Origin: Pegea sp. RAD2-039
Lineage: Eukaryota; Chordata; Thaliacea; Salpida; Salpidae
Length of the DNA: 64,000 nt
NCBI GenBank assembly: GCA_034620365.1
Contig: JAQGEQ010000003.1
Coordinates: 558,001-622,000 of the forward strand
Reading direction: 5' to 3'
Shown here piece after piece: positions 13,625-61,200 of the stretch (positions are counted from its first letter, which is position 1; each line of letters starts with the position of its first letter). Under the pieces are notes generated by a model. That model searched no databases. It saw nothing but the letters and a program-made list of their open reading frames with translations, and was not told the DNA's origin. The translations under genes were made by a program, and so were the position numbers.

Positions 13625-15312
13625 TAAACATTACAAAAAAAATAAAAACTGTAAAAGTGCAATTTTGTATCCAACATTTTTATGAACTCATATGAGATTT
13701 AAAATAAAATAAAATATGTAACATTTATAAATCTTACCTAAAATCAGAAAAAAACCTTTGAAATGCTAAGGTTCTTTAAACAGATTAAAAGTAAACCACC
13801 ACCTAGATAATTATTTAATTTTAATTAAAACTATACTTATTACAAATTTCGAATTAACACAAGTAAACAATAGTAAACTAACAAGTATCAATTAAAAAAA
13901 TAATAATCTTGACATCTGCATTAGAGTAAGATTTAAATGACCCATTTAGTATATTATCTTCAATAATATTTTTTGGTAAAAGAGTTTTTAAGAATTTGAA
14001 ATAAAAAGAAACACTCTTGCAACCATATTTACTACAATCGAAGAATTTGTTTAAATTTTATTATTAAGAAATAAGTTTTTACGATAATCACTACAATCGT
14101 GTAAGGAATCCAGTCATTTTTATTAACGCCTTATTTGATTAATAATTGATTTTGATAATTAAAAACAGCTAAAAAACATAAGAAGAACTTTGAAATTTGA
14201 GAAATAATTTTAAAATTTGTAAACCTCTGTTCAAAAATGAATCAAAATTCACTTTTTAACTGAAGTAAAATTCATTCAAAAAATTAATTTATACAAAATT
14301 TGTAAACAGTCCTATGCTTACATAATAAAATAAAATGTATTTGTAAAAACCTTTTTTGCTAGATTACATAAGAAAATCTTCATTTGCTATAGCTTTAATC
14401 AATCAGTATCAAGATAGTCTTCATTTAAGCAAGTATTAGATCTAAAGCATCAATAAATTTTGAATTAAAGTCATGTAGGTACAAAATAGTATGACTGTAT
14501 TTGTAAAAACATCATTGCATTTCAATATATATATCTTACTACAAGGACGCTAGAAAGATTGCAAGTATCAGATTAAACTATGTGCGAAAGTTTTTAAGGG
14601 TAAATTTTTTACTTTGTGGAGAGATGATAAATTCAATAGAACTGCTCTTTTTTGTTTGTTCTTGATAAGTTTTTCATTCAATAAAATGATATTCTTATCG
14701 ATAAAAACTTTCTGAAAAAAATTTAATAAAAAGAATTTATATCACTTTGTTTCTGTATATATATATTTCAAAAGTTTTTTTTCTCGAAAAATTTATTCGT
14801 TATTTGTTGCATGGACATTTTGGTCTTTAAAAAACATTTAAATAGGTTAAGTCTTGGGAGTTTCAATTTTTGTAAACAATACATTATATGCTTAAGCAAA
14901 CTAATAGTTGGAAATAGTCTCGCGTAGTTTCATGAATTCTTAACTTTTAATTCCAAATTCGTTAGTATCAAACTTATTTTAGAGTTTATATCATTATTCA
15001 ATTTACTTTTACAAATAATATTTATGAATCAAGAAAATAAAGGTTTTATATATACACTTAAAATAGTTTTTAAAGTTATTTTTATAAGTTTTTGTTTACT
15101 ATGTAATTTTTTTTAATGTTTATATACTTTCTAGTATCTTTATTTTTATAAGGCTTTTTCACTTTTGGATTTAGTTTTAAACTAAAAATTATTTTTTAAA
15201 TACAATAATACATTTTTGTTTTTACATGGCTATTTGTGTTTATTTTAATTTTTATAGATTTTATTTTTTCTGTTGAGTTATCAATTTTAAATAATTTAAA
15301 GAAAAGTTCAAA
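13625..15312. other. Intergenic, AT-rich
   Basis: No supported gene. It contains an isolated 82-bp repeat at 14407-14488, listed separately. Confidence 0.5.
14407..14488 (+). repeat. 82-bp repeat, isolated copy
   Basis: Differs at three of 82 positions from 20022-20103 and is also found reversed at 26483-26564. At those two places the unit sits inside LTR copies; here I find no LTR sequence on either side. The flanks share TGTATTTGTAAAAAC (near 14337 and 14496), perhaps a duplicated target. Confidence 0.8.
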
Positions 15313-19870: not shown

Positions 19871-20021
19871 ATTCTAAGAAAGACAATGAGCTATTTGGGT
19901 CTACAGGCAGCACTTTTCGCTTAACCAGTTTCTCAATAATCTTTTTATAAAAAACACTTATTACAGTAAAAAACTAATATGTACTTGCTTGAAAAGAATC
20001 TTATAAAACTCTATACCAATA

Positions 20022-20103
20022 TATCAAGATAGTCTTCATTTAAGCAAGTATTTGATCTAAATCATCAATAAATTTTGAATTAATGTCATGTAGGTACAAA
20101 ATA
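20022..20103 (+). repeat. 82-bp repeat inside the LTR of copy A
   Basis: Same unit as 14407-14488. On both sides lie similar sequences of about 35 bp (starting ACTTGCTTGAAAAGAATC and ACTTGTTTGAAAAGAATC), so the unit sits between two copies of a piece of LTR. The partial LTR near 22250 lacks it. Confidence 0.8.
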
Positions 20104-20243
20104 CTTGTTTGAAAAGAATCTTATACAAATCTATACTGGGTGTAGCATAAAAAACCATCTTAACCGTTAATAAAGTTTAACTGCACTAAGCTCCAATAAC
20201 ACAAAACAGCTGGCAACAATATACCCAAGAAAAAAATATACAA

Positions 20244-20424
20244 ATTGTCCTGCTTGGTGGCGAAGCGGTTACTACACCTTTCTTCTAGCTAGGAAATACC
20301 GGGTTCGACCTCAGGTGGAGACATATTTATAAACTCCTGAGAAAAACCATAAAAAACTCGTGAGAATATGTGTTAGCGAGATGTGCTCTCTTTAGGCACC
20401 CTCCTTCGCATTTATATATATATA
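20244..20424 (+). mobile_element. tRNA-derived SINE inserted in the LTR
   Basis: The head at about 20252-20325 has a pol III A box (TGGTGGCGAAGCGG) and B box (GGGTTCGACCTC) at tRNA-like spacing. The tail 20360-20414 matches the LINE 3' end at 56231-56285 (minus strand) in 47 of 55 positions without gaps. The element ends in a TA-rich run. The corresponding LTR sites in copy B (about 26345) and at about 52010 lack the SINE, so it arrived after the LTR element. Confidence 0.85.
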
Positions 20425-22439
20425 AAATGAATTAAATAAACTGTAATGATAGTAAGCACTTAAGAGAGTTTTATTCAATTGTAAAAGGCGACAACAGTAA
20501 GAGACAAGATTAGTTTTTCAGCAAAGCTTTTCTTTTAAGGATTCTTCTTTTAATATGGAAAGCTAATTTACTTTGTGTATCTTCCTTCAGTTTGATTGAA
20601 AAACTTTGCCAATCTAACACGTCGTCATTACTTCATCAGAAACACGCTCACTAGATACGTGCCAATCTTCATCTTCTTCCGTTCTAGTCATCATGCTGTC
20701 ATTTGGATTCTCACTTACTTCACTTGATGAAACCTGTTTGGAGCTATCCTCTTTATTACTGCATACAGAATGAGCGTCAAAATCCGTATTTGGAGTATCT
20801 GGCTATTTCACTCAATGAAATGTTAGATACTCTGTCATGCGGATAGCGGACTCGCGCGTACATCGCGTTAGCCTTCAGCGGTTCAACCTTCTTCACACTA
20901 TAATCATCATACTTTTTTTGGCTAGAATAAGAACACGAGCTTTTAACATTTCTTCTTCTTCAGTGATAGTATCAAGCTCTCTTCTTGATTCGTCAAATCT
21001 ATCTCTATCACAGCCGTCAACAATAAAAGTTTGCAATTAGAAACTTAAAGTGGAAGCGACTGAAAAGGTTAAAAAATATTAAGATGTGACTAATGTTCGT
21101 TTTATTATGAGTTTCCAATGAATTTACAAGTCATGAGCAGTTGACAAGCAAGTTTTTGTCTCGTCAGTTTATAGTTAGAGGTTGTGTTAAGAAAATTCAT
21201 TTGCAATGTCTGGGTGAGAAAGAACTGTGTGTGCTACACGATACGGAGATGCTGAGTAAGTTTTGGGACTTGGTAAACTTACAAAACATTCCTGAATGGT
21301 GGACTGGGTCATAGAACCACTTAAAGACTCAAACACCACTTTCTAATGAAATTTAAGAAAACCTTTCCCTTCATCATCTCTACACAGAAGCTTTTTATGC
21401 CAAATAGTTTTATATTTTTATATTGCTTCCTAATCAGATAGAGGTTAACTTTGTAAAAATTTGTTTATCTTGCACATCTTAGAAGATTGAGCCATTTCCA
21501 TTTTTAACTGATTTCTAGCTTTCTGAATTTTGAAGTTCTGAGAAATTTGTCGACTTTCGAAAACCTTCAAGAATTCTGTATTAATATGTACTTTAAATTC
21601 CTTACCAACAATAGAGGCTTACTGTTTGGTTTAATCTATAATTAAGGTATAATCTGACGATTGAGTAAATCCCAGTCCTGCCCTTGGCAGGTCACTGCGG
21701 CTTTTTTATACTTTACTTTCCTGACTGCTTCTTGGGAAGCCTTTCTTGAAGATGAAAGTCTCGAATATATCTGCTATTCTTTCCACATTAGAAACATGTG
21801 CTTGAACCAGCTCGGCATTTTTTCGAATCATGAGATTTGCTACCTCTACATTTGAAACAAATGTCTTTCATGGCCGCTACTATTAGTTCCGCTTGGCCCT
21901 CCTTGAGTTCAATTGAGTTTGCTACTTCTTCTGCAGCTTCGACCGATCTGCCAGTCTCGAAGTATTGGTTGTTACGCCGAGTATAAAGTGCTACTACTAG
22001 GTTAAAGGTTTCTTTTAATGCTAGGGTTTCATTCTTTAACAATCTTTGCCTTATAATTGATAAGGATAATCCATCTCTAAATGAGTCCCTGATAATATCA
22101 TACTTGTGTTCTTTTGTCGTAGAATTCTTAAATTAAAGCTCTTAGCTAGAAGTCTTTTATAGAATGAGTTGGCCTTATAAAGATAGTTTGCCTGGTTTTA
22201 ACACTATATTTGTTCTTTATTTTTATAAAAAAAAACTTTGTTACTGTAAAAAACCTAATCTATACTTGTTCAAATGTTTTTCTTGGTATAGCAAAAAAAA
22301 CTATATTAAACGTAGTTAAGCCTTACCTGCGCTAAGCTCTAATACTATTAAATAAATTATAATGATAATGACGGTAAGTAACAACGCCACTAATAAACCT
22401 ACAGTCAATTATTACATAAGGCGCAAAGCATTTTACTGT

Positions 22440-26169: not shown

Positions 26170-27200
26170 CTTGTTGTGTTAGGATACTCTCAGTCCCCAA
26201 TACTCTACATGCATAGTTTATTCTGTAGCTGACTATGGTGTGTTTATATAGTTTATTATTGTTTTTTACTGTTGTTGATAGTCGCCGTTTACAATTGAAT
26301 AAAACTCTCTTAAGTGTTTACTATCATTACAGTTTATTTATTTTGTATATTTTTTTCTTGGGTATATTGTTGCCAGCTGTTTTGTGTTATTGGAGCTTAG
26401 TGCAGTTAAACTTTATCAACGGTTAAGATGGTTTTTTATGATACACCCAGTATAGATTTGTATAAGATTCTTTTCAAACAAATATTTTGTACCTACATGA
26501 CTTTAATTCAGAATTTATTGATGATTTAGATCAAATACTTGCTTAAATGAAGACTATCTTGATATATTGGTATAGAGTTTTATAAGGTTCTTTTCAAACA
26601 AGTACATATTAGTTTTTTACTGTAATAATTTTCTTTTATAAAAAGATTATTGAGAAAGTGATTAAGCGAAAAGTGCTGCCTGAAGACCCAAATAGCTCAT
26701 CGGTAGCTAAAGGGTGATGTCACTAGAAGAAAGTTTTCACCTAAACAAGTTTATGTCATTTGGGAATAATGAAGAAAAATTGACTTCACTACTTAATTGT
26801 GAAATGTCAGATGTTTATGCATACTTCGAGAGCTGCAAGGTAAATCTTATGCGACGCTGGGAGGGTAAAAATAAAGAAACTAAATGAGATTTTTGTGCGT
26901 TAGAACAAAGAAGCACGAACCAAGAAGCAGAAGCCAATCTATCAAAGACTTTTGGTGAACTTTCGTACCTTTATCTAAGTACTGTGATTTTAAGAATTCT
27001 ACGGCAAAAGAACACAAGTATGATATTATCAGGGACTCATTTAGAGATGGACTTTATACTCGGCGTAACAACCAATACTTCGAGACTGGCAGATCGGTCG
27101 AAGCTGTAGAAGAAGTAGCAAATTCAATTGAACTCAAGGAGGACCAAGCGGAACTAATAGTAGCGGCCATGAAAGACATTTGTTTCAAATGTAGGGGTAG
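26170..27200 (+). mobile_element. LTR retrotransposon fossil, Ty3/gypsy-like (copy B)
   Basis: Plus-strand fragment: one LTR (about 26220-26700), leader sequence and the zinc-knuckle end of Gag (about 26990-27200). The Gag part is closely similar to that of copy A, so the two belong to one family. It lacks Pol and a second LTR. It carries the 82-bp unit in reverse but no SINE. Broken, with several breaks. Confidence 0.75.
26483..26564 (-). repeat. 82-bp repeat inside the LTR of copy B
   Basis: Reverse complement of the unit at 20022-20103, at the same place in the LTR as in copy A. Confidence 0.8.
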
Positions 27201-41938: not shown

Positions 41939-44174
41939 AAAGATTAAGAAGATTAAAGTTTGTAAAAATCAAATAAGAGTCTTTGAAAATTATTCAATAA
42001 CAAACATAATTGAGATCTAAAAATTTTTTGACTAGAATAATTCTAGGAAGCAAACTATTATTGAGCTCACAACATAAAATACAGCTTTATAAATTATCCC
42101 TTTTTTGATAAGAACTGACAAACTAAAACACTATAATGACTTCAACAACTTATTTGCAGCTTTTATTTCTGAAATTTAAACTGCTAGTTTATTGCAATGA
42201 AAGGTGGATTTACCAATTATTTGAGAGCTTAAAAGAGTTGTGGTGCATCTTACACTCTAAATTAAAATGAAGCTTGACAGCATAGTGATAAAAGAAAAGA
42301 CGAAAAAATTGAACCGACTTTTAAACAACAATTTTTTATGAGATTGTATCAGTAAATTTATCAGTTTTGGATATACTAATAATAGGTTAAAGTTAAAAGT
42401 TGTGACTAAGTTTAAGTCTTCAATTATCGTTTCAGTTCATTTGTTCATTGTATAAAAAAACCTTATTGCTACTTATTAGTTACTTAGTCCTTGACTTATA
42501 GTGAGAAGGTTAAACTGTAAAAAGCTTTTATGACTAAGTTTATGCTTTGTACTGTAAGCTGAAGCGCGTTTAGTGAGAGTAATTTATCTCCACTTCTAAA
42601 ATATAAATCTCAAGGAGCTTTTTGTAAGTCTACTACACTGTTGTTAGACAAAAAACTGCATATCAAAGTCCATATAACATATTTATTGAAGTTCAACAAA
42701 CGCTGAGTACATCAAACAGTTTATTAGGCTCAACAGCTGGGTGCCTCAAAGACTTAGTATTCATCGCTTTATCCCTAAAAACATTTTTTATTTTTTTTTT
42801 GAAATTAAATAATAATTAAAATTAGTAAAATCTAAATCTGTCCTAAGCATTTTGCAGTATACAAGCATAACTAGAAATTAATAAAATGTTTTATTTAAAA
42901 GTTAACAGACTTTTGTTAGATTAGCTTATGATTAAATCTAAAGTATTAAAAAGAAATATCGAAACTAAAACTTACGCTCGAGTGCTTCTATTGAATTTTT
43001 TATCATCATTAGTTTCTTTTGAAATCCAGGATTAGCTAAAATTCAAGAAATTAATAACAACTAAATAAATAAAAAAAGGTTCAAGGGTGAGAAACCTTTA
43101 ATGGTTGCTTTTAGTATTTTCTTCATTAATTTTGGCACATCAACTGATTTAATAGCAACAGCAAGACGTTTTAATTCGACTTCAAAATCTTTTTTAAATT
43201 CTTTTTCATCAAGATTCTAAAAAAGTATTCATAATAAAGAAAAATCTTTTTTCATTAATAAAATGTTGTCCACTAAACCTCTTTATTCATCACCAATTTA
43301 TTAACCGTCTCCAGATCATTCAAAATCTCTGGTTCACTAGGAACAATTTCAGTTTAATTCACAAATATCTTTAAATTGACCAACTAATTAAACTTTTATT
43401 TTCATAAATTAAGAACTATTTTTAGAACTGGTGTAAACCACTTTAGTAATCAGTAAAATCTTAAGTACACCAACCTTGTAGACATTTCTTCAACCAACGA
43501 TGAAAACATCAATAGTGTAAGTAGTATCAGAAACATTTTTGTGATTTTTGAGTATTGTAAGACGAGAAACCTAAAAACGACAATTAAATTATATTCTATT
43601 TAATACAAAAGTTCTTTTTATAATCAAACTAGAATTTGTTTATATATTGAAAGTATCAAATAGAAAGCTTAATTAAAAACTTTGTACTTTTTCAAAGCTT
43701 ATATATAAGATTTGAAACAATAAAGTAAAACCCCTACAAAGAAAACTCCCTTTAAACAGGAAAACTAAACAGCTTATAGTTTATACAAAGTTTATTTTGA
43801 ATTGATGATGTTGACTATTTCAGCAAAAACTATTTATTCTCAATGTCTTCACCTTAGAAGTTTAAGTTTAAATAGCTGTGTACTATCAAATACATATAAA
43901 AAACTACTTAATATAATAACAATTTAAAAGTGAAGTTGTAAAACACATGACCATGTAATTACAATTGTAATTATTTCTATTTTAAATTAATTCATTTGAA
44001 AAATTAAAAAAGTTTTAAAGTAATTATTTATATTTCGTGAGAAAAATATGAAATTAAAATCTAGTTTTATTGACAAATCAATTGTGTTGAACACAAGAAT
44101 TTGTGGCCACTCTAACAATTCTACGTCATCTATATAAAGTGGCTTTTGGGGTTGCCAATTGTGCAACTAAATCT
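41939..44174 (+). repeat. Large inverted repeat, left arm
   Basis: Reverse complement of 53332-55567. Matching positions sum to 97506 at both ends and at the exon boundaries between, so there is no net length change over 2236 bp. By eye most stretches match above 90 percent. The arm holds the pseudogene at 42761-43536. Confidence 0.95.
42761..43536 (-). pseudogene. Broken copy of small secreted-protein gene
   Basis: Inverted copy of the gene at 53970-54745. The five exon positions (43471-43536, 43279-43368, 43096-43216, 42976-43035, 42761-42774) and splice sites are kept. The second exon has TAA at 43354-43356 where the other copy has AAA (Lys), ending the frame after about 25 residues. A Lys to Ile change is also seen at residue 4. 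Otherwise the frame is open, so the loss looks recent. A sequencing error at that codon is the alternative. Confidence 0.75.
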
Positions 44175-45284: not shown

Positions 45285-48200
45285 TCAACAAGTATCACAA
45301 GATTTTTGACAAAGAAATTCTAATGTACTAGCGTATTTATCGCTACAGTGTCCATTAATTTTCCATCTTGGGCAAGATTTACTATAATCCTCACATTTGT
45401 CTAAAATTAAGCAAAATTAAATTATGAGAAATTACTTTTTCTGCATAAACATCAACAACAGTTATAGTAAGAATATTTTTAAACTGTTATTTATATCACT
45501 TTTTAAATTAGACAAAAACTTTTAATATGTTTTGCTTTATGAGTTAGTGACTCTTACGAATTATTAACAAAATTCAGCAAATGAAACCTACCACAAGCGT
45601 TGCATGTCTTTCTGCAATTCTTTGTCATAAAAGCTTCATATTTACTTTCTTCACAGAACCCTCTTTGGAACCAATAGGCACAATTATACTTGTTTAAATC
45701 TCTGCATTTTTCTATAAAGGAATAAAAACAAAACATTTTTATTTTAGAAAAGTGTAAGGATAAAAGCTTCAGGTATTTAAATCTCTAGGTATACAACTTT
45801 TTTAACAATAATACTTCTTATGCTAAACTAAAATCTTCAAACTTTGAACAGCTTTAATTATAAATAAGATATAATAAGTACCTGTACATAGACCGCAGCT
45901 TTTTCTGCAAGCTTTTTGATAAAACTTTCTGTTTTCGCAATAGCCTAAACTTGCCCAATGAGGACAACGACTTCGGGTATCAATGCAATCATCTTAAAAA
46001 AACATTTTAAGGTTACTGGTGAAAACAGTTTTTTGATTAGTTATTTGTTTACATCGTCTTTTGTTGTTTAATCATAATAATTATTAATCTTTCTCACCTT
46101 CAACACATTTTAATGTCGACGGTAAAAAGCCGTTTTCAGTGCAAACTGAAATTGTTTGATTTTCTGGTTTCCATCCTGATCTACATCTTAATTTTACCTT
46201 TTCGCCCTCAGCAAAATAATCTTTTTTATTTTTATTCAAAATTCCATTTCCACTAACTTCTGGTTTTGTTGCACAAGTAGCTATAAAATGTTTACATATT
46301 TGATACTCTTGTATAGGAAAAACTATTCCATTATTGACCAATTAATTATAAAAATTCTTTATACAAAAATAAACTCAAATAAAAGTTATCTAATGTAAAC
46401 AATTTACTTTAAATCTGCCAGATAGATTAGTTTAGAAAAAAATGAATGTTTACTTGTACTCAATTTTGACTTTTAAAAATCTTACTTTTTCATTTTTTCG
46501 AAACACTTTACAGTCAGTGTATTTTTGTATAGAAGATTTCTAAATAATCTGATTAATCATAATCTTACAAACCTTCTACACAGGTTAATGTAGATGGTAT
46601 AAAACCACTTCCATAGCAAGTTGAAGTTGATGGTCCTTGTGAAACTGAACCTTCAGCACACTTTAATGTAACTATTTCACCTTCGTAGTAGATTGAATAA
46701 TCTTCTAAAATCTTTCCATCACCAGTAACATTTGGTGGGTTAAGACATTCATCTACAAGTAGAATATCAATGTTTACTGTTTTATATTTCCTAAGAGAAT
46801 TATGTTTATTATTTGCCTCATTAATCAAACATTAGAGTCGAAGCAATAAAATTTAAATATCAGACTATAAGATCTTTATTGTTCTTCTCTGTGAAAGCAA
46901 CTTTTATCGTAGAGGTAGGAATTGTAATAAACATTGAGTTTTGAGTTGTTTCACAATTTAAAAGGATAAGCCATTTATGATTTCAATATGATGAAAATCA
47001 ACAGCTAATAATAATGTTAAATACTTTAAGATTACAAAAGTAGTGAGATTATGAATCAAAACTAGAGAAGCTGTAAAACTCTTTACCCGATTCTTCAGTT
47101 GTAGTAGCTTCTGTTGTAGTGGCTTCTGTTGTAGTAGCTTCTGTTGTAGTGGCTTCTGTTGTAGTAGCTTCTGTTGTAGTGGCTTCTGTTGTAGTAGCTT
47201 TTGTTGTAGTAGCTTCTGTTGTAGTGGCTTCTGTTGTAGTAGCTTCTGTTGTAGTAGCTTCTGTTGTAGTGGCTTCTGTTGTAGTAGCTTCTGTTGTAGT
47301 AGCTTCTGTTGTAGTGGCTTCTGTTGTAGTAGCTTCTGTTGTAGTAGCTTTTGTTGTAGTAGCTTCTGTTGTAGTAGCTTTTGTTGTAGTAGCTTCTGTT
47401 GTAGTAGCTTTTGTTGTAGTAGCTTCTGTTGTAGTAGCTTTTGTTGTAGTAGCTTCTGTTGTAGTTGAAGCAGTAGGACAGTTGTACATTTTATTAATTT
47501 GAAAAATATCTTCTTGAGAAGCATCATCCATCTATAAATAAGTTGCCCAAGTTTACTCTTTTAAACATAAGTATGTTGCTTATACATGAATGAAATAGTC
47601 ACTTACGTCTTTAATTATTCCGTCATTCATGTCAACTATAGTAGGTTTTCCATTTTTTGTAAAGGCGTAGCTACTGTAATGCATCACAGATTTCAAATCA
47701 TATGGAGAGTTTAATGAGTCAACTTTAGTTTGATCATATTTGTTAAATGCACTTTCAAATCCTATAAGTCAATTGAATTGCATAAGAGATTGGTTACTGC
47801 TCAGTGACAACTATATTAACATTAAAATTTTGACCTTGTGTATAAGCACATAACTTTAATAATTTATTAATCATCTTATAAATTTATGAATTAAAAGAAT
47901 TCAACCTTCTTCGATATTATCTGTTAATATCTTAACATATTCATCTCTATCCGGTCTACTCTGCTCATGCCAAAATCCAAGTGCGTGCATAATTTCATGT
48001 ATAGCAGTACCCTTCCATTCACAACCACTTCCTAACGAAATCTAGCAGCAGAAATTATTTAATTGACTTTTTAAAACACTCAAGCAAATTTATTAATGAC
48101 ATAAACTGACTTATCAGTTCAATACAAACTATATTTTTTGATTTTTTTAAGTATAAAAACGAGATTAAGTGATACTTACTTGTTGAGGCTTAAATTGGGG

Positions 48201-48906
48201 AATTCGACCAACATACGACCAACAGCCAGATTCCTTAATAAACTCTATGTAAGATTCTTCACTTGTTCTAGGTTTAAGACTTATGCAAGTTGATTCATCG
48301 AAGAATTCTATTGCTTGTGAAATTATATTTCTCGCAGCAGAACCTACAAAACAAATGTTCAAATTTGATAGTTTGCTTAATGAATAAATCAAATATATTC
48401 GTATAACTTATGATTACCTAGCTGTGGAGATATTATGTAAGGAATAATAAACTTATCCCCCAACGGAATATTATTCCAAAGTAATAATCCCTTAGATGCA
48501 CCACGCTTTTCAATAGAATGTTCGCTTTGTTTTTTAGTAAGGTTTCTTATCAAATCAGCTTGATAACCAGTCAGTTTGATATCTCCTTCAAATCCATCTG
48601 CTATAAATATATAAAATTAAATAAATTTTTATTCAATGTTACTTTTCCTTACTTTTATTTGAACAAAAGTCGATATCAATAGGTGAATGATAGTGCTTGT
48701 TCTCTAAAACTTCCTTACACCAACTTGATGTTCTTGGCTTAGAATGCACAAGAATAATACAAGAAAATAGCAAATCTGAAAAAAAACAGCTGATAAAGTT
48801 TTTATGTTGTAAAAGGTCTTAACTTCAAAGACTCTTACAGCTTGAATATTATGCAAAGTATCAAATAGAAAACGAAGTAATACTTACAAAAAAAGACTTT
48901 AAACAT
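45285..48906 (-). CDS. Astacin metalloprotease with CCP and ShK modules
   Basis: Secreted zinc endopeptidase. Twelve minus-strand exons (48888-48906, 48653-48775, 48418-48600, 48180-48343, 47906-48041, 47607-47761, 47087-47531, 46573-46752, 46098-46280, 45882-45992, 45592-45711, 45285-45400) give 644 aa. Signal peptide about 1-19. The propeptide contains FEGD (51-54), the aspartate switch, and ends at KR 79-80. The catalytic domain has [12 protein letters not shown] (zinc ligands His178, 182, 188; Glu179) and the Met-turn SVMHY (233-237). A Thr-rich TTTEA repeat (about 281-402) is a likely O-glycosylated stalk. Then come two CCP/sushi modules (about 409-529) and three ShK six-cysteine modules to the C-terminus. 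All catalytic residues are present. A TATA box lies 66 bases upstream. Roles in matrix processing or feeding are inference. Confidence 0.95.
47098..47466 (-). repeat. 15-bp coding minisatellite ([10 protein letters not shown])
   Basis: About 24 tandem copies of a 15-bp unit inside the seventh astacin exon, encoding Thr-Thr-Thr-Glu/Lys-Ala. Being a multiple of three, copy number can change without shifting frame. Variation is mostly GAA/AAA (Glu/Lys) and GCC/GCT. The other frames and the opposite strand are also open here, creating false long frames. Confidence 0.95.
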
Positions 48907-49110
48907 AGTAGTTATTCTGACTAGTTGCTGGTATCTAATAGATTCTTTTGAAATAAGCTGAGTTCTTTCTACTTTTATACTAGATTATGATTCAGCTTAT
49001 CAATAATCATTACATAAAATGAATCATAGTCTAAGATATAAAGTGATTAACTTTTTGTTTATTCATGATTAATATTTATTGCAAACACTAACCCTAATGA
49101 GAATTAACTT
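48890..49110 (+). repeat. Inverted duplicate of astacin promoter, source copy
   Basis: Reverse complement resembles about 50935-51150, including the TATA box, the 5' leader and the start codon. Shared words include ATGATTATTGATAAGCTG and AGATACCAGCAACTAGTCAG. Confidence 0.85.
48972..48979 (-). promoter_or_regulatory. TATA box of astacin gene
   Basis: TATAAAAG on the minus strand, 66 bases upstream of the ATG. The same element at nearly the same distance is kept in the truncated inverted copy (51059-51066). Confidence 0.6.
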
Positions 49111-49199
49111 TTCTATTTTGCCGGATATTACCGAATCAAGTCTTACTGCTTTGTTCTACAAACATATTTTAAGCAACAAAAATTCATTTTTCATCAAAT

Positions 49200-49550
49200 G
49201 GAAAAGGTTTTTTTTAATAAATAGTAAATCCTATTTCAATGAATATCTAAGATAAAAATTATAAAAACCATGTAATCAGAGCTTAGCAGAATAGTTGAGT
49301 AAATTTATATAGAATTATACAACCGATAACTTTATCTTAAAGAAAATGACAAATATGTTTGTTTAGTTACTGTTGAGTCTTAAATTTTAACCAACTGACA
49401 AAGCGATAAATTTTTTAACTTCTTATTATTTCTATGGATTGGTCCACAGTATAAACTAATTTTTAATTCTAAATATTATTTTTAGTCCCTTAAGAGAGAA
49501 AGACGTTTGGATAACGACAGGATTAAAGTACCCAAATAGATTTAGGCATC
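49200..49550 (+). repeat. Inner inverted repeat, left copy
   Basis: Reverse complement resembles about 52440-52790; examples are CTAAGCTCTGATTACATG and TACTTTAATCCT. The order relative to the promoter duplicate is not that of one simple inversion, so more than one event occurred. Confidence 0.7.
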
Positions 49551-49669
49551 ACTAATTTTAATCCCTTATGAGCACTTTAGAAATATATAGATGTAATACT
49601 GATTGCATTTCAGTTTTGTTCATCAACTTTAGACAGAGATAACACAGAAATGGTATGCTCAGAGATTTA

Positions 49670-50000
49670 TTAATATAAGGCAAAGTTTTTTAAAGCGTGA
49701 AACTAACAATGGAGGTAGTTTTTAACCAAATGGTGACATTCCAATATTTCGGAGACGGTAGATCGGTTGAAGCTGCAGAAGAAACAGTGAACTCAAACTT
49801 AAGGACGGCAGAATGGAACCGACAGCAGCGGCCATGGAATGAATTTGTTTAAAATGAGAAAGTGGCAAACCTCATGCTTTTAAAAGATGTTGAGCTGTAT
49901 TGAGCAAATGTTTCAAATGCGGGAAGAAGGGACACTATAGTCTATGCTGTCACCTGCAGAAAAGGTGTCCCAAGCAACAGTCAGAAAAGTAAAGAATGGA
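49670..50000 (+). mobile_element. LTR retrotransposon fossil, Gag fragment
   Basis: Plus-strand remnant of the family seen at 21788-22140, ending in a CCHC-type zinc knuckle near 49900-49950. Broken; only a piece of Gag is visible. Confidence 0.65.
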
Positions 50001-50934
50001 GAGAGCCGCAATGTAAGCCAAGGGCATGAAGTACTGGGACTTACTCGATTTTCAATAAGCTATTTAAACTTTTAAGAAACTAGTTAAAATCACAACTAAG
50101 CGTACATTTGCTTGCAACTTAATAAATTCTTATTATTTTTAGTTATAAATTTTGATAAAATAGTGTCTGAAATTATCTTTGTTAATAATGTTGTCAGTAT
50201 TATGCTAAGCTTTGTCAGTTTACACAAATTTTTTTCGAAGACTTATTTTTGGATAATCATTATTTAAATACTCATTAATATATAACAGTTCAGTGACAAA
50301 GCTGAAACTTTATCGACTATAAAAGAACAAAAAAAAATGCTTCCAAATAAAAAATGTTACCCAAAAACTTAGAAAAGTCTGTCTTACATTAAATACTATT
50401 ATAAGCAGTTCTTTATGAAAGACGTTTACTCATATGGTTGAAAAAACAACCAGGTAAAAAGTACTTCCTTACTGTCTAGAAAAAATCAGAAGAAAATTTT
50501 CAAAAAAGTAAACTAAAAACCACTTTTAAAACAGTAAAATGTGATTAGTTTTTGGTTTCCATTCAATTTGTTTCTCAGCCATTGGGGTAGTATATATGTG
50601 TTTTGTTTAATTCTGAAGAATTCTAAACAATTTGATTAAGAAATTATATGTTGGAAAATAAATGATTGGTTGATATATTGAAAATTTTTATTTTTCTTGC
50701 TTTGGAATTATTGCTAATTTATTTGTTTATCTTTTGCTAGTTTTATCATAACAAGGATTTGATTTTTAAATAGTTGGACTCAATTTTAAGATTAAGTATT
50801 TTTAATGTATAGATAATCTAAAAACAATAAAATCATGATTTACTGTTGAATTGATTTTTGACTCAACAAGTATCTCAAGGTGAAAGAACAATTTTACAAC
50901 ATATAAACAAAATAAAAAAGTTAATTCTTATTAT

Positions 50935-51195
50935 GGTTGTTGTTAGCAAGTTTATAACAAATAATTAATCATGAATAAAAAAACAATTAATCATCACTTT
51001 TAAAAAAAGCTTGATTTATTTTATGTAATGATTATTGATAAGCTGAATCATAGTCTAGTATAAAAGTGGATGAGAACTCAGCTTATATCAAAAGAATCTA
51101 TTAGATACCAGCAACTAGTCAGAATAACTACTATGTCTAAGACTTTAATTTATTTTTGTACATTCCAAGCCAAGATCCTCAAGTTGATGATAGAA
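50935..51195 (+). pseudogene. Truncated copy of astacin promoter and 5' end
   Basis: Carries a promoter similar to the astacin gene's (TATAAAAG at 51059-51066) and ATG at 51133-51135 followed by sequence related to astacin exons 1 and 2 (CATTCCAAGCCAAGATC). The 112-bp first intron and part of exon 2 are missing, and similarity stops near 51195. No protease domain follows. Because the promoter is included, this is a DNA-level copy rather than a retrocopy. Confidence 0.75.
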
Positions 51196-51239
51196 ATACG
51201 TGGTGTAAAGAGTATTTTGCCGCTGACGTAAATGTATTA

Positions 51240-51385
51240 AACGTAATTCTCATATAAACGGTTATCAGTCCGTAATAGGTTGTGTTGTGAGTAGCGCATA
51301 TCGTTAATATATTTATCGTTGTTGTTAGTCGCCTTATTAATTTGAATAAAGCTCGATATAAAGAGTCATTATCATTACAGAATGT
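51240..51385 (+). mobile_element. LTR fragment of the same gypsy-like family
   Basis: Resembles the LTR segment near 26260-26330 (shared AGTCGCC, TTGAATAAA and ATCATTACAG). A small solo piece joined to the truncated astacin copy. Confidence 0.6.
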
Positions 51386-51499
51386 TAGAAGACACACACT
51401 ATCTACCTAAATGTTTCCTATAAACACCTTTTCTAAAGATGGTATTCCTTCCTATAGTATCATTTTTCTCTATAATTGAAACATCTAATCTTCCTCGAT

Positions 51500-52095
51500 A
51501 CTTTTCTAAAATAAGAAAGTTTATTACTTCCATTTTAAACAAACTCTAGCTGCTACTGTCAGTTCTACTTTATCATCATCGTTGATTTCAATTGAGATTA
51601 CTACTTTTCCAGCAGCTTTGACCAATCTTCCAGCACCAAAGTATTTATTATTCAATCGAGCGTTCTTTAGAGTTACTGCTTGATGAAAGCCTTCATCTAA
51701 AGTCAAAGCCGTGTGCTTTAATAACTGTTTATATTTGATGAACATAATCCATCTATAAATGAGTTCCCAATCATCTTATTCCTGAGCACCACCGCAGTGA
51801 TATTTTTAAAGACGTATCAAAGTGAACCAAAGATATACAGCATTTATAGTCAATCCTTTTGACTTTAATGGTACATCCATTTCCATATAAAAAATGATTT
51901 GTTTTATTATATACAATATATAAAATAAGAATTAAAACTCGCTGAGCTTATAATGCGCTTTACTACAATAACGCCAAAATAACCAACAACAAATTGCCCA
52001 AGAAAAAAATAATAGAATAAATTGTAATGATAATAACACTGTAAGAGAGCTTTTTTCCATTATATAATGTGAACAGCAACTACAAAAATAGGAAA
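51500..52095 (-). mobile_element. LTR retrotransposon fossil, LTR plus Gag fragment
   Basis: Minus orientation: an LTR piece at about 52090-51950 followed by Gag-like sequence at about 51780-51524, the same order as in copies A and B. Broken. The LTR lacks the SINE, giving a second empty site for the insertion at 20.3 kb. Confidence 0.65.
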
Positions 52096-52439
52096 TAATT
52101 AATATACAACAAATTGTTTATACTACACATGCTAAAAATAAGCATGCAGTAAAATACTGTTAAAAATTTAAAACATTTCACAAAGGTTTACAATAAAATT
52201 TTAAGTTTATACTTGTAAGCCTATTGTTCTTAAATATTCGATCGACTTATTATATTGTAGTTGTTTTTAATACAACTGATATATCTGTAAATATTATGGG
52301 ATTTCAACAACACAAACTTATTAACAAGAAAATTATCAAAAACTGTTTGATGTTTGATCATAAATCTGAATACAACTGAAATGTAAACACTATTACATCT
52401 ATACTTCAGTAAAATCCGTGCAAGCCATTAAAGTTACTG

Positions 52440-52790
52440 ATACCTATTTGAGTACTTTAATCCTATTTTGGTAATTTCAGGGAAATTAGAATTCTGTTAA
52501 CTTGAAGAAGATTTTGTAAAATTTTTTTGCCATAAGTTTTGATAACAAAAAATTAAACTGTCTCTATTTTGTCTGGTGATTAAACCTTAAAATTTAACAG
52601 CGACTAAACAAACAAAATTGTCATTTCCTTTAAGATAAATTTCTCAATTTTTCAAATCCTGTAAATCTATTATTTGTCAATTTACTCAACTAATTTCCTA
52701 AGCTCTGATTACATGTTTTTTTATAATTCTTATCTTAGATACCTATTTAAATAAGATTTACTATTTAATTTAACATGATGCTTTCACAGA
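52440..52790 (-). repeat. Inner inverted repeat, right copy
   Basis: Partner of 49200-49550. Non-coding in both places. Confidence 0.7.
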
Positions 52791-53251
52791 AAAGAACATT
52801 AAAGATATTATAGTCCAATACATAATTTTATTATTTTGACTGTAATGTGTTTGATCAATTCAGCAAATAATAAATGAGTCTCTTAGGAAATATAAAATAG
52901 TAAACAGTGATATTCTACTTGTAGATTTATGTGTTAACCCACCAAATAATTATGATATATTCATCTTGTTGTTATCAAATATTTCATAAATTTTCTCGCT
53001 CTCATAAGCACAAGTGAGATAAAACCAGCAGAGGCATTTATTGCAGTCCTTACCGGAACCCTATTTTCTCTTTGTGCATTTCACAAAGTTTTGCTTTATT
53101 AGTTCCTTTGCATCTCACTGTTTTTTGTTTGTTTTAGTATCAACACCCAAGGCCCATCTAGCATAGTCGTTCTCAGCCAAAACAGGCCCTATTATTAACA
53201 TAATTTATTTTTACAACAAAGTTTGAAATATGCTATAAAAAATATTCCAGT

Positions 53252-53331: not shown

Positions 53332-53969
53332 AGATTTAGTTGCACAATTGGCAACCCCAATAGCCACCTTATATAGATGACGTAGAATTGTTAGAGTGGC
53401 CACAAATTCTTGTGTTCAACACAATTGATTTGTCAATAAAATTAGATTTTAATTTCATATTTTTCTAAAAAAATATCAATAATTACTTTAAAACTTGTTT
53501 AATTTTTCAAATGAATTAATTTAAAATAGAAATAATTACAATTGTAATTACATGGTCATGTGTTTTACAACTTCACTTTTAAATTGTTATTATTTTAAGT
53601 AGTTTTTTATATGTATTTGATAGTACACAGCTATTTAAACTTAAACTTCTAAAGTGAAGACATTGAGAATAAATAGTTTTTGCTGAAATAGTCAACATCA
53701 TCAATTCAAAACAAACTTTGTATAAACTATAAGCTGTTTAGTTTTTCTGTTTAAAGGGAGTTTCCTTTTTAGGGGTTTTACTTTGTTGTTTCAAATCTTA
53801 TATATAAGCTTTGAAAAAGTACAAAGTTTTTAATTAAGCTTTCTATTTGATACTTTCAATATATAAACAAATTCTAGTTTGATTATAAAAAGAACTTTTG
53901 TATTAAATAGAATATTATTTAATTGTCGTTTTTAGGTTTCTCGTCTTACAATACTCAAAAATCACAAAA

Positions 53970-54745
53970 ATGTTTCTGAAACTACTTACACTATTGATGT
54001 TTTCATCGTTGGTTGAAGAAATGTCTACAAGGTTGGTGTACTTAAGATTTTACTGATTACTAAAGTGGTTTACACCAGTTCTAAAAATAGTTCTTAATTT
54101 ATGAAAATAATAGTTTAATTAGTTGGTCAATTTAAAGATATTTGTGAATAAAACTGAAATTGTTCCTAGTGAACCAGAGATTTTGAATGATCTGGAGACG
54201 GTTAATAAATTGGTGATGAATAAAGAGGTTTAGTGGACAACATTTTATTAATAAAAAAAGATTTTTCTTTATTATGAATACTTTTTTAGAATCTTGATGA
54301 AAAAGAATTTAAAAAAGATTTTGAAGTCGAATTAAAACGTCTTGCTGTTGCTATTAAATCAGTTGATGTGCCAAAATTAATGAAGAAAATACTAAAAGCA
54401 ACCATTAAAGGTTTCTCACCCTTGAACTTTTTTTTATTCATTTAGTTGTTATTAATTTCTTGAATTTTAGCTAATCCTGGATTTCAAAAGAAACTAATGA
54501 TGATGAAAAATTCAATAGAAGCACTCGAGCGTAAGTTTTAGTTTCGATATTTCTTTTTAATAATTTAGATTTAATCATAAGCTAATCTAACAAAAGTCTG
54601 TTAACTTTTAAATAAAACATTTTATTAATTTCTAGTTATGCTTGTATACTGCAAAATGCTTAAGACAGATTTAGATCTTACTAATTTTAATTATTATTTA
54701 ATTTCAAAAAAAAAATAAAAAATGTTTTTAGGGATAAAGCGATGA
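53970..54745 (+). CDS. Small secreted protein, 116 aa, unknown
   Basis: Unrecognised. Exons 53970-54035, 54138-54227, 54290-54410, 54471-54530 and 54732-54745 join in phase to 116 aa. The N-terminus MFLKLLTLLMFSSLVEEMST is a signal peptide. The mature part is charged and helix-forming (KEFKKDFEVELKRLAVAIKS, LMKKILKATIK) with a single Asn-Lys-Thr glycosylation sequon and no cysteines. The exon 1 donor was chosen four bases after the first GT because only that restores phase. Poly(A) signals lie at 54781 and 54819. An alternative last acceptor would change only the C-terminus. The inverted paralogue at 42761-43536 is broken. A secreted effector or antimicrobial-like peptide precursor is possible but unproven. 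Confidence 0.65.
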
Positions 54746-54818
54746 ATACTAAGTCTTTGAGGCACCCAGCTGTTGAGCCTAATAAACTGTTTGATATACT
54801 CAGCGTTTGTTGAACTTC

Positions 54819-54824
54819 AATAAA
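54819..54824 (+). terminator. Poly(A) signal of small secreted-protein gene
   Basis: AATAAA 74 bases after the stop codon; another AATAAA at 54781. Confidence 0.5.
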
Positions 54825-55909
54825 TATGTTATATGGACTTTGATATGCAGTTTTTTGTCTAACAACAGTGTAGTAGACTTACAAAAAGCTCCTTGAGGTT
54901 TATATTTTAGAAGTGGAGATAAATTACTCTCACTAAACGCGCTTCAGCTTACAGTACAAAGCATAAACTTAGTCATAAAAGCTTTTTACATTTTAACCTT
55001 CTCACTATAAGTCAAGGACTAAGTAACTAATAAGTAGCAATAAGGTTTTTTTATACAATGAACAAATGAACTGAAACGATAATTGAAGACTTAAACTTAG
55101 TCACAACTTTTAACTTTAACCTATTATTAGTATATCCAAAACTGATAAATTTACTGATACAATCTCATAAAAAATTGTTGTTTAAAAGTCGGTTCAATTT
55201 TTTCGTCTTTTCTTTTATCACTATGCTGTCAAGCTTCATTTTAATTTAGAGTGTAAGATGCACCACAACTCTTTTAAGCTCTCAAATAATTGGTAAATCC
55301 ACCTTTCATTGCAATAAACTAGCAGTTTAAATTTCAGAAATAAAAGCTGCAAATAAATTGTTGAAGTCATTATAGTGTTTTAGTTTGTCAGTTCTTATCA
55401 AAAAAGGGATAATTTATAAAGCTGTATTTTATGTTGTGAGCTCAATAATAGTTTGCTTCCTAGAATTATTCTAGTCAAAAAATCTTTAGATCTCAATTAT
55501 GTTTGTTATTGAATAATTTTCAAAGACTCTTATTTGATTTTTACAAACTTTTGTCTTCTTAATCTTTCATAAATAGACTGGGCTCTGATTTAATTATTTT
55601 TTATGAGTCTTTATTTTCAAAATAATACTTCACACTATTTATCATAATTATTAAATGATCAAAAAATAATATCTTAGTGACGTCAAGCTTATTGAATTCG
55701 TAATTACTAAGATAAAATCAAACACTTTCTTTAAAGTTAGCCCTTTCACAATTAAAGCAAAATGAATTCAAAAGATTTCTTTTATTTTTTATTTTGTAAT
55801 TTTTGGAAACCGTTCAAAATAAAAAACGAATAAATAAAAAAGTTAAAAATTGATGACTGATCTCGTATTCTTGATAATCGATACTATTTCATAAACTAAC
55901 AATATATTA

Positions 55910-56214: not shown

Positions 56215-56650
56215 TGGATTTATTTATTTCAATAAATGCGAAAGAAGGTGCGTGAAGAGAGCACTTCCCGCTAACATACATTCTCACAAACAATATCTAC
56301 TAAATTAGAAGTATAGAAAGCAAAAGATGTAACATATGGCATTTCAGTAGTCCTCAAAGCATTCAACAGTGAACAATTACATGGAATGTTAATAATATAA
56401 AAAAGAGAAAAAAAATCACAGTTTAGAAATGACAATGTTGGCAATATTATAACGGTTCAACTTCTTTTTGAACAACGCGAGTGACTTCGACATGACAATG
56501 TCTGATGGCAGGTGATTCCATGTATTAATTCTGCGGTATGAGAAAAAATTTGCTCTGGTTAACTTATCAGGTGATATGAGCTTACTAAGATGTAATTAAT
56601 GTCGTCTAAGTTGATATAACTTGTCTACAGTGTGTAGTTAGAAGTTGATA
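56215..56650 (-). mobile_element. CR1/Jockey-like LINE, 3' end
   Basis: The minus strand reads RANFFSYRRINTWNHLPSDI then VMSKSLALFKKKLNRY and stops at 56416-56418. This is the conserved C-terminus of CR1/Jockey-group LINE polymerases (FFS.R.I..WN.LP..). About 200 bp of 3' UTR follow and end in a short AT-rich tail near 56215. The ORF is open over the last 50 codons or so, with a stop upstream, so it is a 5'-truncated dead copy. Positions 56231-56285 match the SINE tail at 20360-20414. Confidence 0.85.
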
Positions 56651-58213: not shown

Positions 58214-61200
58214 ATGGAATTTTTGAATCAATTACAAATTCCTGATTGCGTAATATCTTCATACCAACAAACTAAATTAAAAAAAGTCTTTCCATGGCAA
58301 ATAGAATGTCTTAAACAACCTGGGGTCATAGAAGGTCAACGTAATCTTGTTTATTCTGCTCCTACTGGAGCAGGGAAGACATTTGTTACAGAGATTTTAA
58401 TGCTTAAGCAAATTTTACGACATGAAAAGAAAGCTATTTTCATACAACCATTTGTATCAGTTGCAAGAGAAAAGGTATTTGCATTGAAGTCTTTATATGA
58501 AGGTACTGGTATAAGAGTTGGAGGCCTTATAGGTGGACATAGACCTGTAGGTGGCATTGCATCTATTGATGTGATTGTATGTACTATTGAAAAAGCAAAT
58601 AATTTGATTAATAGAATGATTGAATCGAAATCTATGGATCAATTTTGTTTTATAGGAATTGATGAAATTCATATGATTGGTGATAGTAATCGAGGTTATA
58701 TATTAGAACTTTTGTTGACTAAGCTGATGTATTTAACTAAGCGTAGTAAGTTTGAAAGTTTACAGATTGTAGGCATGAGTGCAACTATTCCAAATTTGAA
58801 TTGTATAAGCAAATGGCTTGAAGCTGAGATTTATACAACAAATTTTAGACCTGTTCCTCTTTCAAATTTTGTTTTAATTGGTGAAAAGGCTTACAACGAT
58901 GAGCTTGTAGAAATCAAAAGCAACTTTATAAAATTTGATTTTGAAAATGATGATGACCAAATTACATCACTTTGTTATCAAACAATATGTGATGGTCATT
59001 GTGTTCTAGTATTTTGCCCAACAAAATCATGGTGTGAAAAATTAGCAACTAACATTGCTAAAAATCTGTATTTATACCATTTGAAAAATAAATGTCCATC
59101 AGTATTAACATCAAGAGTTCAAAAGCTCTGTGAGTTGTTTTATCAACTGAAAAGATGTCCTGCGGGATTAGATGACGTGCTGAAGTTGACAATACCTTAT
59201 GGGGTTGCTTATCACCATGCAGGACTCACTATTGAAGAAAGAGATATTATTGAAAGTGGATTCAGAGATTGTACGATTGGAGTTTTAGTTGCAACATCAA
59301 CATTATCTTCAGGAGTTAATCTGCCAGCAAGGAGAGTGATTATAAGGACACCAAAGTTTCATGGGAAGCCAATAGATATTAGAATGTATCATCAAATGTG
59401 TGGAAGAGCTGGAAGAAAAGGTAAAGATGAAGCTGGTGAAAGCATCTTAGTGTGTAAAGACCAAGAAAAACACGTTGGTTTTAATGTAGTAAAAGGTGAA
59501 ATACCAAAAGTAGAAAGTTGTTTGTTTATATCACCTGAAGATAATGAAACATTAACTAGTAGTTTAAAGAGATTAATCTTAGAGGTGATTGGAAATGGAC
59601 TAGTTTCAACATTTAATGATATTTTAAAGTATATGAAATGTTCTTTATGCTATTATCTTCAACCTAAACACTCCAACTCCAAGAATGTGTCTTTGGATGA
59701 TCAAGTAATAGAGAAATGTGTTAACTGGTTGGTTGAAAATGAGTTTATCTATCTTCAAATAACAACAAGTGAAAAGAAAGTTACTCCAACTCAACTTGGA
59801 AGAGCCGCTTTACTATCTTCTCTACCTACATCTGAAGCATTATTAGTTTTAGCGGATTTACAAATGGCTTCTAAAGCATTTGCATTAGATAGTGAACTCC
59901 ATTTAGTTTATCAAGTTACGCCAATATTTGTAATTAATCAATTATCAAATATTGATTGGTTCAACTTTATGTACATTTATCAAGCACTATCTGCTGCACA
60001 CAGAAATGCAGCTAAATTAATTGGAATATCTGAACTCTTTTTGGTTAAGATGGCTTCATCTGGTGGCGAAATACCCAGTAGCGCTTCTAAGAAGCAAAAA
60101 AGATTTCTTAATATTCACGTTCGTTTTTTTGCTGCGCTTATACTAAATGATCTAATCAATGAAACAAGTTTAAATGAGCTCTGTTCCAAATATAAATGCA
60201 ACAAAGGAACAATTCAAAATATTCAGCAGTCGTCGGCAGTCTTTGCTGGTATGATAACAGCGTTTTGTCAAGAGCTTGGCTGGTGGAGCCTTGAAATATT
60301 ACTGAAAAACTTTCAAGCTCGTTTAATATTCGGCATTCAGCATGAATTACTTGATTTAAGTCGAATCTATTTATTAGATAATGTTAGAGCTAGATCTTTT
60401 TTCAAATGTAATCTAAAAACTTGTCTAGATGTTTGTATGTCCACTATTGATGAAATTGAATTGATTTTAATCAATTCAACGAAATTTCAAAGCAAAAATG
60501 ATAAAAATGCAGAAGCTAATATTAACAAAATTAAGGTTGTTGGGTTAAGTTCACCATTAACAGTTCACAATGCAGCTGTTGAAATTATTAAAGAAGCAAA
60601 AAAGATTTGTAAACACGAAGACGAAAAATCCAGTTATCAATCACAAGCCAATTCAAAATCTCTTAGCTTTTCTAGTCCACAAGCAAAAGTTATAAAACTA
60701 AGCAAAGACATTAGTAAACCTACCTCGTTGCTTTCAACAGAAGAGAGTACAGATAAAAATAACATAAAGAATAATGATGCTTTAGAAGAACAATTCAAAA
60801 CTCCAGTGTCTTACAACAGCTCAAAAATGGTTAAAGTAAAGTTGAAAGAATCACCAGACAACATGAATAATGAAGGAAGTTTTATTGATTTATCTCTTTC
60901 TAATTCTCAACTCGATTCGTTGCTTAATGAAGAAAGTGGTTTGAACGTGACATCATTAATTCCATGCAAAGAAAGCACACCTATTAGCGAGCCTAGAAAC
61001 AGATCACTCAACATTAGAAACCGCCTTGAAGAAGAAGTAATGTGCAGCGTAATATCGAAATCTTTTCTTAATGATAGTGACTCGTTTGATTTATTTGAAG
61101 AAAAGCTAAATAATGATTCAGATAAATGGAGTTTAGAAGAAGAACTTCAGCGTTTAGAAAAGATGAGTAATGGAAGTTTGAGATTAGAAGAACAGTCAGA

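Follow-up and report, generated by a model that had tools for sequence, protein, structure and literature searches.

Does the SINE copy at 20247-20429 (plus strand) of the window, by which we mean the whole 64,000-nucleotide stretch of Pegea DNA analysed here, owe its 3' end to a LINE, and if so, to which one? A sequence-only reading had aligned the 55 bases before the AT-rich end of this SINE, without gaps and with 8 mismatches, to the 3' end of a LINE copy in the same window. This alignment was borne out, as 47 of 55 bases were identical between 20360-20414 and 56233-56287 on the minus strand. The LINE coordinates had been given as 56231-56285 and were off by 2; at that place the agreement with the SINE 55-mer drops to 23 of 55 bases. 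The second-best place for the 55-mer, searching both strands of the window, reached 29 of 55. The wider searches described below were done in the assembly of 105.7 Mb and 387 contigs.

The ends of the SINE copy, 183 bp long with its AT-rich end, and the AATT flanking it could be fixed because an inverted paralogue of 19886-20492 (repeats I2 and I9), located at 26281-26700 on the minus strand, lacks the SINE. When the two were aligned, the junction of this empty site fell near 26343. The possible target-site duplication comprises AATT at 20243-20246 on the left and AATT at 20430-20433 on the right, where the empty paralogue has AAAT; a four-base duplication at this site is therefore likely, and it hangs on one base difference. 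The host of the insertion is itself a dispersed repeat, with copies at 19886-20492, 26281-26700 and 14407-14488. Target-site duplications had been named beforehand as a mark to look for, and the possible AATT pair of the window copy stands; a general signal was absent from 49 SINE copies, in which the end of the 5' flank was matched against the 3' flank (mean junction-anchored match 3.96, compared with 3.89 for re-paired flanks; 186 of 500 shuffles were as high). Short or absent duplications would fit CR1-type elements.

The head of the SINE carries two motifs, TGGCGAAGCGG at 20258-20268 and GGTTCGACCTC at 20302-20312, which we take to be the A and B boxes of an RNA polymerase III (pol III) promoter. 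They are separated as in a tRNA, in agreement with the sequence-only reading, and a looser pattern (A box, 20-60 nt, GGTTC[G/A]A) matched the window once, where 100 Markov windows gave an expectation of 0.07 matches. In the window copy, no match was found to the strict box pattern ending in GGTTCGANNCC, while the SINE family consensus reads GGTTCGACCCC and meets the strict B box. Over 20247-20422 the window copy is 97.2% identical to this typed consensus. A search of the Rfam tRNA model with one SINE copy gave no match at E values up to 10, and no clear parent of the head emerged among Thr, Cys, Arg, Lys and Ser tRNAs, the best isoacceptors being Cys, whose score was reached by 10 of 200 shuffles, and Arg, for which 12 of 200 did so. 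The tRNAs read for this comparison included two of Cys and three of Lys type, the latter drawn from contigs C208, C1, C210 and C195. Matches to tRNAs cluster on contigs C19, C77 and C208, and on C19 and C77 they often lie about 196 bases apart.

Downstream of the head follow a 56-base tail (20360-20415) and an AT-rich terminal stretch, (AT)n and then AAAATG (20416-20429). By eye, the bases across the junction of head and tail (20355-20366) are repeated 23 bases upstream, at 20332-20343, with 11 of 12 bases identical, which is possibly a footprint of the joining of head and tail.

To see whether the tail belongs to the family as a whole, we searched the genome with the head only and fetched 35 of the best 41 among 405 first-look candidates. 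The six head matches left out lie on contigs C361, C179, C174, C362 and C354, with one on C176, and by score at least four of them look near-identical to fetched ones. The tail followed the head in 33 of the 35 fetched copies, among them two with internal tail deletions (L088 and L097). Of the remaining two, L090 retains 8 bases of the tail, and the other is a partial second head, at C15:423273, that lacks a separate tail. The sequence-only reading had regarded its proposal as endangered if most members lacked the shared bases; in these head-selected copies the great majority have them. The SINE is also common, as many short copies are dispersed through the genome (at least 41 head matches, and 11 of 60 sampled tails, see below).

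A 22-base core of the tail has 917 exact matches in the genome, compared with 0 for its reversed control. We took the first 60 listed matches in sequence, all on contigs C1 and C3, and typed them by extension against five references, which gave 11 SINEs, 23 copies of a LINE family that we call LINE-B, and 26 copies that belong to a second family, LINE-A, or stayed unassigned. With copies collected and consensus sequences built, as had been proposed from the window alone, the tails of SINE, LINE-A and LINE-B differed at 2 of 56 positions in each pair, so that SINE and LINE tails are 54/56 identical and the SINE tail is equidistant (2 sites) from both LINE tails. The consensus 3' UTRs of LINE-A and LINE-B are 57% identical from -88 to -21 and 68% identical over the 20 bases directly upstream of the tail. 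The 20 bases before the SINE tail resemble neither LINE (6/20 and 8/20), and the junction of head and tail is therefore sharp. That two LINE families with such diverged 3' UTRs have kept the same tail points to the tail as a module that is probably recognised as such. Four of the 11 sampled SINEs (L154, L159, L160 and L171) form a variant with C instead of G as the first tail base. The idea that the SINE tail goes back to one diagnostic LINE ancestor was rejected: an exact pattern with the SINE G-to-T change behind the LINE-type TTT found one copy, otherwise LINE-A-like, and revealed no LINE subfamily with the SINE tail.

The LINE in the window is a 5'-truncated LINE-A copy at 56218-56623 on the minus strand, delimited by blastn to locus L010 and tblastn of the LINE-B ORF2. 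It retains the last 67 residues of ORF2 (56422-56622, minus strand; 76% amino acid identity to LINE-B over these residues), the 3' UTR, the 56-base tail (56232-56287, minus strand) and the terminal repeat. At one LINE-A locus, two pieces of ORF2 were 77-79% identical to that of LINE-B. LINE-B accounts for the strongest reverse transcriptase matches in the genome, and the tail was found downstream of the reverse transcriptase in 23 of 24 fetched loci (10/10 and 13/14, with L075 lacking it). Among the 150 reverse transcriptase matches listed, about 40 are stop-free and fall within open frames of at least 1,000 amino acids. A stretch of 948 aa of the ORF2 of one LINE-B copy matched Exo_endo_phos_2 (2e-11) and RVT_1 (2.9e-39), that is, an APE-type endonuclease and a reverse transcriptase. 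The upstream parts of six LINE-B copies are 98.3-100% identical in their overlaps, and four of the six have a 334-aa ORF1 with a Cys/His-rich stretch and a weak match, below the cut-off, to Pfam PHDvar_NSD (E 0.014). A PHD-like zinc finger in ORF1 is a trait of CR1 elements. LINE-B, a candidate CR1-like LINE, had the R2 and L1 reverse transcriptases as its PDB matches.

Which of the two LINEs might serve the SINE at present? In the 60-copy sample, which was picked by exact tail match and therefore favours young copies, median divergence from the consensus was 1.9% in 11 SINEs (0-12.5%, from local alignments), 0.9% in 16 LINE-B copies (0-1.7%) and 9.2% in 19 LINE-A copies (6.4-16.2%). Because the SINE and LINE-B divergences overlap, LINE-B is the likelier recent helper; it also has long open frames. 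The LINE of the window, which had been put forward as the partner, thus shares the tail as claimed and is itself an older, 5'-truncated LINE-A copy, whereas the current helper would more likely be LINE-B.

Taken together, we consider it highly probable that 20247-20429 is a copy of a dispersed SINE composed of a pol III-type head, a 56-base tail of LINE lineage and an AT-rich repeat, including the part assigned below to a LINE helper. Comparison of the copies supports the tail-borrowing layout for the family at large: the architecture read from the window copy, a head followed by a borrowed LINE 3' end, recurs at the same junction across the family. RNA polymerase III would make the SINE RNA from the internal boxes and would run on into the tail, as the typed consensus lacks any run of four or more T. 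The ORF2 protein of a LINE, with LINE-B or a close relative as the presumed recent helper, would recognise the common tail and start target-primed reverse transcription there. Borrowing would have run from LINE to SINE, because two LINE families with ORF2 77-79% identical have the tail while the SINE copies are young.

The alternative that survives best is that the tail is a relic taken long ago and that the SINE is now copied by another enzyme, for example one that recognises only the AT-rich end. One argument for it comes from the predicted hairpin. The LINE tail consensuses are predicted to fold better than most shuffled sequences (z -2.57 and -2.67). The fold of the SINE consensus is weaker (z -1.57), and at tail position 23 a G-to-T change specific to the SINE disrupts a predicted stem pair. 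Two SINE tail variants behaved differently: one folds weakly (z -1.28), and the other folds well (z -3.02) but adopts a different shape. The LINE hairpin showed no covariation across 130 distinct tails (0.9226 paired, compared with 0.9224; 116 of 300 shuffles as high). Given the weak SINE fold and the lack of covariation, the tail hairpin is a prediction only, and of the shared hairpin suggested from the window there is a predicted fold in the LINEs and a weaker one in the SINE. The copy with 8 tail bases and the two with internal tail deletions would also suit a relic, although these could be later deletions. However, young SINE copies have a nearly unchanged tail, which is present in almost all fetched head-selected copies, SINE and LINE have similar terminal repeats, and the timing of the SINE overlaps that of LINE-B. 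We therefore regard a relic as improbable and retain a tail that would still be in use by a LINE enzyme.

A second alternative, that the 56-base tail is a separate small repeat which spread by its own insertion beside LINEs and SINEs, draws on tails that stand nearly alone. A tail-start pattern had 257 exact matches, 100 of which were listed; we fetched 40 that were picked for unusual upstream bases, and at 25 of these upstream similarity to LINE-A, LINE-B or SINE never exceeded a score of 40. Likewise, 12 of the 49 non-SINE copies in the 60-copy sample had an upstream similarity below score 50, with at most 28 nt of LINE before the tail. Insertions of a nearly bare 56-base tail, with little or no upstream LINE, thus occur among both sets of loci (L104-L143 and L144-L203); one picked locus (L116) has apparent LINE ORF2 sequence upstream of its tail, and some bare tails may be members of LINE families outside our references. 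Yet the tail always sits at the extreme 3' end of SINE, LINE-A and LINE-B copies, at a junction that is fixed for each family and immediately before the AT-rich terminal repeat, so that the unrelated repeat inserted in both, against which the sequence-only reading had cautioned, was not seen. No duplication at the tail boundary was visible by eye, and the bare tails often carry up to 28 nt of upstream LINE, like 5'-truncated LINE copies. This alternative is accordingly disfavoured, and we rate it as very improbable. Least credible of all, and refuted by its controls, is an origin of the window match by chance or from simple repeats in an AT-rich genome: the window has only 28% G+C, but the tail is its G+C-richer part, the best 55-mer match in 30 first-order Markov windows was 28 to 31 of 55, and the exact core copies stand against none for the reversed core.

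The bare tails may also tell where the LINE enzyme stops. Of the 23 LINE-B copies in the sample, 5 have their 5' break no more than 21 nt from the tail and 2 have it at 89 nt; the other 16 extend to 205 nt or beyond. The two breaks at 89 nt share their 3' flank and are probably one event, and in one of the five near-tail copies (L155) the break could, by eye, lie even nearer to the tail. Genome-wide, exact LINE-B probes counted 366 (-8), 329 (-32) and 256 (-216) matches; corrected for the conservation of each probe in 38 copies (31, 31 and 33 of 38), this gives about 449, 403 and 295, so that the loss per base is roughly three times as high in the first 24 bases as further upstream, with the caveat that the -8 probe may also pick up other LINE families. 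The breakpoints of LINE-A are blurred by divergence. A hot spot for bare tails is thus only partly supported, and it is plausible that the tail boundary is a stopping or jumping point for the LINE enzyme. Going further, the enzyme might often stop at the start of the tail and, if it also jumps to other RNA, would form a standing SINE factory of which the present SINE is one product; we put this forward as a speculation that is rather unlikely. For birds, Suh et al. (2017; PMC5729268) propose that SINE heads are gained by template switching. Together with the clustering of 5' breakpoints, the nearly bare tails provide an entry to the question of how a SINE comes by such a tail in the first place.

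Several further features of the window deserve mention. An inverted repeat with arms of 2,236 bases (41939-44174 and 53332-55567; 33 mismatches) spans a spacer of 9,157 bases, and a bacterial-table listing of its first arm shows no ORF as long as 60 aa. Shorter inverted repeats (I5-I7, I10, I11, I13 and I15-I17) form a nest at 46730-52947, with a LINE ORF1-like fragment nearby at 52962-53048 on the minus strand. Tandem arrays of 15-base and 21-base units lie at 47003-47557 and 896-1147, respectively, and one minus-strand frame of the former reads as a Thr/Glu/Ala-rich repeat protein. The domains known from DNA polymerase theta (helicase, POLQ-helical and DNA polymerase A) are found together in one open frame of 1,646 aa at 58214-63154 (plus strand), which has no visible introns.

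The SINE described here belongs to the known class of tail-borrowing SINEs, as a clear new example that we liken to known pairs by description. The closest parallels are TguSINE1 and PittSINE, the CR1-mobilised SINEs of passerines, for which the account in Suh et al. (2017; PMC5729268) likewise describes a head of tRNA type that contains A and B boxes, the same near-identity of the tail to a LINE 3' end with few diagnostic differences and a terminal repeat, and the same overlap in time of the SINE with one LINE family. In that account, their heads were traced to tRNA-Ile and tRNA-Asp and their end is the 8-base CR1 repeat; the present SINE, in contrast, ends in an (AT)n/(AAAT)n-like repeat, and its head had no clear parent among the five isoacceptors compared. 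The stringent-type pairs of eel UnaL2 and zebrafish ZfL2 likewise have a common 3' tail with a predicted stem-loop, as presented by Hayashi et al. (2014; PMC4176376), where recognition was established by retrotransposition and binding assays, whereas in the present pair we infer it and the SINE stem is weaker. The layout also corresponds to the tRNA-type SINEs with LINE-derived 3' ends in the SINE/LINE pairs described by Ohshima (2013; PMC3747384), in whose overview the CR1 and RTE clades are prominent among the LINEs that lend their 3' ends. To these pairs, our analysis adds a well-populated one, whose LINE partner is young, from a small and AT-rich eukaryotic genome.
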